Source: a virus. From it: DNA of 22,901 nucleotides. The notes under the pieces were generated by a model. That model was not told the DNA's origin. It saw only the letters and a program-made list of their open reading frames with translations, and made no database searches. Numbering within the stretch: position 1 is the first letter of the stretch; the number at the start of each line of letters is the position of its first letter. Positions 1,940 through 2,484 of the stretch are shown here, in pieces. The DNA lies in IMG/VR virus record IMGVR_UViG_3300048833_000203, positions 1-22,901 of that record, one strand, 5' to 3'. Made by a program: the position numbers and the translations under genes.

Positions 1940-2011
1940 TAAGGGAATGGCGGAAATGGAACGCTCCAGACGGCAAATCTGGCACATTTGGGTTCGAGTC
2001 CCAATCCCTTA
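1940..2011 (+). tRNA. tRNA-Cys-like (GCA) with non-canonical positions
   Basis: A cloverleaf can be drawn: acceptor TAAGGGA/TCCCTTA (7 bp), D arm GGCG/CGCT with GG in the loop, anticodon stem CCAGA/TCTGG, and T arm TTGGG-TTCGAGT-CCCAA. The anticodon at 1973-1975 is GCA (Cys). It departs from normal tRNAs in three places: position 33 is G instead of the near-universal U, position 8 is A instead of U, and no base 26 separates the D and anticodon stems. It may be a decaying tRNA or a tRNA-like RNA with another job. CCA is not encoded. Confidence 0.6.
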
Positions 2012-2018
2012 CTCGTTG

Positions 2019-2099: not shown

Positions 2100-2130
2100 C
2101 ATATGACAGCTCGGAAAGACGGGCAACTTT

Positions 2131-2214
2131 GGGAGTAATGCACGAATTGGTTAGGCGCTAGACTGTAAATCTGGTAATCCGCATGGATAGGAGGTTCGAA
2201 TCCTTCTGCTCCCA
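2131..2214 (+). tRNA. tRNA-Tyr (GTA)
   Basis: Acceptor GGGAGTA/TGCTCCC (with one G-T pair), anticodon stem CTAGA/TCTGG, anticodon loop CTGTAAA with GTA at 2165-2167, a long variable arm ATCC-GCAT-GGAT, and T arm GGAGG-TTCGAAT-CCTTC. The long variable arm is the class II form expected of bacterial tRNA-Tyr. The discriminator A is 2214 and CCA is not encoded. The D stem is weak (two good pairs) and position 8 is A rather than U, as in the tRNA-Cys-like gene. It probably supplements translation of phage genes. Confidence 0.85.
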
Positions 2215-2216
2215 CA

Positions 2217-2477
2217 ATAGTTCTTTGCATTTGAAGCTAATTCAAGACAGGGGTTCGACTCCCCTCAGCTCCACATAGCCAAAGGTAGTTAGGTAATAGT
2301 CTTTTGACTTAGCGCAAACCTACCTGTTCATTAATGGGGCCGACTGGTTTTGATTGGATTGAGTGTGTAGGGTGCGTCCAATGAGGACTATTTCGATAAA
2401 CGGCAAAACCGTTTCAATGTCTTTCGCAGGTGCTAGAGTAGCTGCATAAGAGGTCAAGCCCCGAACCAAATCGGGGC
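2217..2477 (+). ncRNA. ssrA: Circularly permuted (two-piece) tmRNA
   Basis: tmRNA rescues stalled ribosomes by acting as alanyl-tRNA and then as a short mRNA for a degradation tag. Here the 3' part comes first: T arm AGGGG-TTCGACT-CCCCT (2249-2265), acceptor strand CAGCTCC (2266-2272) and discriminator A (2273), a textbook tmRNA 3' end. After 62 bases the 5' part begins: GGGGCCG (2336-2342) followed by a D-domain-like ACTGGTTTTGATTGG. The two acceptor strands pair with six of seven pairs (one C-A mismatch) and place G-U at pair 3-70, the alanine identity element. TTGAGT (2359-2364) can pair AATTCA (2239-2244 region) as helix P2. The intervening part folds by AGGTAG/CTACCT (2283-2288/2320-2325) and AGTC/GACT. 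A tag frame from GCA 2426 encodes AGARVAA and stops at 2449. This order (acceptor piece, spacer, coding piece) is that of permuted ssrA genes. Outer ends are estimates. Confidence 0.75.
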
Positions 2478-2484
2478 AACTTTT
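2458..2484 (+). terminator. Hairpin closing the tmRNA coding piece
   Basis: A 7-bp GC-rich stem GCCCCGA/TCGGGGC with loop ACCAAA is followed by AACTTTT. It lies 8 bases after the tag stop codon. The T run is short, so it may be a weak terminator, a 3' processing signal, or a helix of the coding piece. Confidence 0.5.

Follow-up and report, generated by a model that had tools for sequence, protein, structure and literature searches.

The question raised by this locus is whether a virus genome carries a working tmRNA gene (ssrA) with its two ends in reverse order and, if so, to which line of two-piece tmRNAs it belongs. The window, i.e., the whole stretch of DNA analysed, takes in the full length of one IMG/VR virus record (22,901 bases), in which the portal gene (376-1743) is followed by tRNA-Cys, tRNA-Tyr, the permuted tmRNA, and a run of small genes. 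The features of the locus are as follows:

1940..2012, + strand: tRNA-Cys (GCA), called by ARAGORN and common to sister phages without the tmRNA
2121..2130, + strand: 10-bp direct repeat GGGCAACTTT, left cassette border, from sequence comparison
2131..2214, + strand: tRNA-Tyr (GUA), from ARAGORN and the sequence; CCA not encoded
2215-2484, + strand: permuted tmRNA gene, with 3' end, spacer, 5' end, tag, and hairpin in that order
2215..2273, + strand: acceptor piece of about 59 nt, to which CCA would be added; 5' end placed by the adjoining tRNA
2238-2245, + strand: 3' strand of P2, within the acceptor piece
2249-2265, + strand: T arm, 5/5 pairs, TTCGA loop
2266-2272, + strand: acceptor 3' strand CAGCTCC, within the acceptor piece
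2274..2335, + strand: intervening spacer, 62 nt, predicted to be removed
2336..2480, + strand: coding piece of about 145 nt; 3' end placed by the hairpin
2336-2342, + strand: acceptor 5' strand GGGGCCG of the coding piece, starting at G2336 and followed by the D-loop
2354-2361, + strand: 5' strand of P2, TTGGATTG, in the coding piece
2402..2449, + strand: tag frame GKTVSMSFAGARVAA, 15 codons and stop TAA, from ARAGORN
2458..2484, + strand: terminator-like hairpin GCCCCGA-ACCAAA-TCGGGGC, then AACTTTT (41-nt stretch, fold z -3.4)
2474..2483, + strand: 10-bp direct repeat GGGCAACTTT, right cassette border, from sequence comparison

The preliminary description had placed a tmRNA 3' end (T arm, CAGCTCC, and discriminator A) upstream of a 5' end that is followed by a tag frame, and all of these parts were recovered in that order. 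The acceptor piece ends in the discriminator A2273, with CCA uncoded, and ARAGORN called a permuted tmRNA with the tag GKTVSMSFAGARVAA* at 2402-2449. The resume codon GGC lies 66 nt from the tmRNA 5' end, a leader with enough room for pseudoknot PK1 before the tag, and the tag ends in VAA and the stop with its frame intact. The spacer, described as 62 bases and folded, is exactly 62 nt, and its predicted fold exceeds chance by a modest margin (MFE -12.3, z -1.6). The pairing described across the spacer holds at six of the seven acceptor positions, including G-U at 3-70, and breaks at the mismatch C6-A67. The P2 helix, which joins the acceptor and coding pieces, has 8/8 pairs. The hairpin at 2458..2484 was not reported by a consensus terminator scan (too few T), and a sigma-70 scan returned no promoter, the sigma-70 consensus being one that does not cover Bacteroidota promoters.

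A strict permuted arrangement (full T stem, TCC-A, at least 6/7 acceptor pairs, and D-loop GG) occurred once in the window and in 0/200 dinucleotide shuffles of it, and ARAGORN likewise made no permuted tmRNA call in these same shuffles. Covariance models gave 51.2 bits for Rfam RF04321 (tmRNA_permuted; gathering score 47), at the low end of the range of the phage group described below (43-69). The window passed none of RF01849-RF01851 (alpha, beta, and cyano) at their gathering scores; the beta model matched in part (36.7 bits vs 84 required). Positive controls covered two of the three clade models, and alpha and beta loci passed theirs. The RF04321 score alone is weak evidence because standard one-piece tmRNAs also reach it: five ARAGORN-standard loci (the L090-L094 set, from 100 Pseudomonadota genomes) scored 53-65 bits. 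Near its threshold (about 50 bits), this model does not tell one-piece from permuted tmRNA, and it was rejected as sole proof. Among the same control genomes, one of ARAGORN's permuted calls (L092) was spurious. As neither tool is decisive alone, the weight falls on the arrangement, on the pairing read directly from the sequence, and on the relatives.

Scanning viral contigs for the pattern and searching deposited phages by similarity turned up permuted tmRNAs in many phages. The group considered here has 16 distinct loci: the window, L002, L004, L007, L033, L034, L038, L039 (Chryseobacterium phage MA9V-3, PV245944), L040 (crAss-like genome cr10_1), L041 (Maribacter phage Panino, PP540027), L047, L050, L052, L053, L057, and L058. 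Two of them, Panino and MA9V-3, come from phages grown on Bacteroidota. Judged by sequence, the group is a phage-borne one set apart by a short leader (57-68 nt from the 5' end to the resume codon), a mostly uncoded CCA (all loci except L002), and a related tag. The tag frame is kept in all members, often as G/D-K/N-V-I ... P-x-R-x-A-A (e.g., GKVMNVSFAPTVRQFA, GKQINVNFAASRKLAA, GKVIQMFAQPVRLAA, and DKVINLFNAPLRMVA); for L058 and L053, the ARAGORN tag was replaced by the in-frame reading at the conserved place. No member passed the alpha, beta, or cyano model, and L034 (42.8 bits) falls just under the RF04321 cut-off. A hairpin over the resume codon (AAACGG-CAAAA-CCGTTT) was dropped as a group hallmark because most alpha and other phage tmRNAs fold similarly.

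The pairing could be followed across the 16 loci. G3-U70, which is the alanine determinant, is invariant (16/16), and the loci split evenly at acceptor pair 5, eight having C-G and eight G-C, a compensatory change. Pairs 1, 2, 4, 5, and 6 of P2 vary on both sides (C-G, T-A, A-T, etc.), and P2 complementarity averaged 7.1 within a locus vs 5.4 between loci, a difference reached in 0/10,000 permutations. This covariation indicates that the tmRNA structure is under selection in the group. The window gene itself is known from a single virus population (identical in L023 and L031), so the conservation described is that of the order, stem, P2, and tag frame across independent phages. The window tmRNA region had no blastn match among annotated phages.

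The preliminary description had also called the locus phage-borne and of Bacteroidetes type, and both attributions stood. The window is an IMG/VR virus contig with portal, MuF-like, tail, and endolysin genes. The closest annotated relatives of the portal are from Cellulophaga phages (30%) and then Flavobacterium phage 11b, those of the MuF-like protein are also from Cellulophaga phages, and those of the endolysin are from Flavobacterium phage hemulen (57%) and then Nonlabens phage P12024S. A Shine-Dalgarno-like motif precedes one of the 31 window genes; a scarcity of such motifs is expected for Bacteroidota genes. Together with the permuted relatives in Maribacter and Chryseobacterium phages, these gene comparisons suggest that the phage infects a member of the Bacteroidota, probably a flavobacterium. 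No prophage relatives were found in bacterial genomes with the portal as the query.

We therefore consider it probable that the locus is a functional circularly permuted ssrA of a Bacteroidota phage, the host probably being flavobacterial. Such a gene would work as follows. The tRNA-Tyr/tmRNA transcript would be cut by host tRNA enzymes. With A2214, the last base of tRNA-Tyr, directly adjoining the acceptor piece, a single 3' cut by RNase Z behind the tRNA would also define where the acceptor piece begins. Panino, L033, and L052 likewise have a tRNA whose 3' end lies about 5-10 nt ahead of the tmRNA match, and in these three group members and the window the tRNA just upstream may supply the 5' processing of the acceptor piece. 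Cleavage by RNase P in front of G2336 would free the coding piece at its 5' end, the acceptor piece would be trimmed and given its CCA at A2273, and the 62-nt spacer would be discarded. The two RNAs would be held together by the acceptor stem and P2, and the acceptor piece would be charged by AlaRS. The preliminary description had credited the phage with its own ribosome rescue and its own tag. The tag frame is there, and an SmpB gene was found in none of the 19 phage records searched (several of them fragments), so host SmpB would be needed to carry the two-piece tmRNA to stalled ribosomes on broken mRNA. Ala-GKTVSMSFAGARVAA would then be added to the nascent chain (the Panino counterpart, alanine plus phage tag, being AGKVMNVSFAPTVRQFA), and the ribosome would be freed. 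We infer expression and tagging by the window tmRNA from this analysis; the likely benefit would be that ribosomes are kept free during infection while host mRNA degrades, with the phage's own tag.

The flanks bear on whether the gene was gained or lost. A 353-bp unit holding tRNA-Tyr and the tmRNA (2121-2473) lies between the two GGGCAACTTT copies. Sister contigs L024 and L025 have portals 93% identical to that of the window and match it at 99.5% over tRNA-Cys; they lack tRNA-Tyr and the tmRNA and have a single hybrid GGGCAACTTT copy instead, a difference explained by a single recombination at the repeat. RF04321 had no match in the whole records of these sisters or of relatives with 48-51% portal identity. 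Gain of the cassette is the more economical reading of this comparison, with loss as the less economical alternative. A second unit, the window stretch 2495-2673 with a 51-aa ORF (about 2508-2660), is also missing from L024 and L025 and is flanked by near-perfect 16-bp repeats ACTAAAACAGRTATGA. The region downstream of the portal resembles a cargo site at which units come and go at short repeats.

The absence of the cassette from close sisters, together with the C6-A67 mismatch in the acceptor stem, would also suit a decaying or decoy copy that is transcribed and perhaps processed without taking part in trans-translation, either competing for SmpB or AlaRS or being dead cargo. There is a precedent in the form without a CDS from mycobacteriophage DS6A, whose expression in E. 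coli inhibits endogenous tmRNA (PMC11915505). However, RNAs of the DS6A type lack the CDS, whereas the tag frame of the window is intact down to VAA and the stop, that of every other group member is kept, and all eight P2 pairs form. We regard a decoy or decaying copy as unlikely.

The functional two-piece gene could instead be an ordinary capture, in which a permuted ssrA was acquired from the phage's own host and the phage group is nothing special. Bacteroidota chromosomes are known to carry one-piece ssrA, and RF04321 found no match in Bacteroides ihuae, the sole Bacteroidota chromosome control, which makes the bacterial test a partial one. A motif covering 5 of the 16 group members gave two chance matches in 84,980 bacterial and archaeal genomes, both inside genes, in unrelated sequence and without a T arm. 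Published phage tmRNAs do mostly follow the host lineage (PMC9004378), but the three main bacterial clades to which permuted tmRNA is ascribed are alpha, beta, and cyano (PMC11915505), and we rate host capture as decidedly improbable. That the locus is no tmRNA at all, being a 3' remnant of a standard ssrA beside unrelated sequence or a chance resemblance to a tRNA, would fit the RF04321 scores of 47-65 bits on standard tmRNAs, but is contradicted by the direct pairing, the tag, P2, and the 15 similar permuted loci and is hardly credible.

The window tmRNA, read as a functional permuted ssrA, is not a new kind of gene because phage two-piece tmRNA is already known from Melnitz. Two-piece tmRNAs with their own tag have been described in the phages Melnitz and Mosig and other marine phages and are reported to sort with the alpha, gamma (beta), or cyano lineages; two-piece forms account for 53 of the 133 unique tmRNA structures listed for phages (PMC9004378). 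What the window shares with genes of the Melnitz/Mosig type is the phage location, the permuted ssrA order, and a tag of its own. The proteobacterial-type phage loci in our set, most of which pass the beta or alpha model (L045, L048, L051, and L056 pass RF04321 only), have leaders of 80-96 nt, or 80-95 nt where the alpha or beta model is passed, and an encoded CCA, in contrast to the 66 nt and uncoded CCA of the window. The cyano-type genes of cyanophages S-SSM7 and S-CRM01 share the short leader (63-70 nt) and uncoded CCA with the window, but have a spacer of about 4-5 nt (ARAGORN) vs 62 nt and Ala-Asn or Ala-Lys tags. The SsrA genes of Panino and MA9V-3 are like that of the window in permuted order, short leader, and uncoded CCA (tags GKVMNVSFAPTVRQFA and GNVIDINKYVAKLEVAA, respectively), although these genomes (77 and 103 kb) are much larger than that of the window's phage. 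What is new is the predicted two-piece tmRNA group of Bacteroidota phages, which fits no alpha, beta, or cyano model.

The preliminary description had also proposed a separate lineage. An ML tree built without constraints from 146 columns brought the 16 group loci and L015 (17 rows) together with weak support (aLRT 67, UFBoot 32), and the node adding L056 to them had a support of 95/86. With no clade model passed, a separate lineage is likely and a single grouping of these loci plausible, but neither is proven. Going further, we tentatively propose a fourth two-piece lineage, confined to Bacteroidota phages, which arose by a separate permutation and has a tag unlike the one-piece tag of the host; the chance that this holds in full seems to us a little short of even. 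Were a permuted form widespread among phages of a one-piece phylum, it would show that such genes are maintained in phages independently of the host lineage. Provided that phage and host tags differ, mass spectrometry could separate phage from host tagging in the same infected cell, and the existing isolates Panino and MA9V-3 make the reason for a phage tmRNA testable.

These two deposited Bacteroidota phages carry their permuted tmRNAs unremarked: their papers annotate SsrA, and the words "permuted" and "two-piece" are absent for it. A non-exhaustive literature search found no report of permuted tmRNA in either Bacteroidota or the phages that infect them. S-SSM7 (L059 587-805) and Panino (L041 1555-1704) each have a hypothetical protein annotated over the permuted tmRNA. 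In cr10_1 (L040 128-306), a RAGATH-9 RNA lies about 1.2 kb before the permuted tmRNA. ClpX is the protease partner by which tmRNA tags are usually recognized. MA9V-3 is also annotated with a ClpX subunit, at 26938-27777 of PV245944 (PMC13120357).
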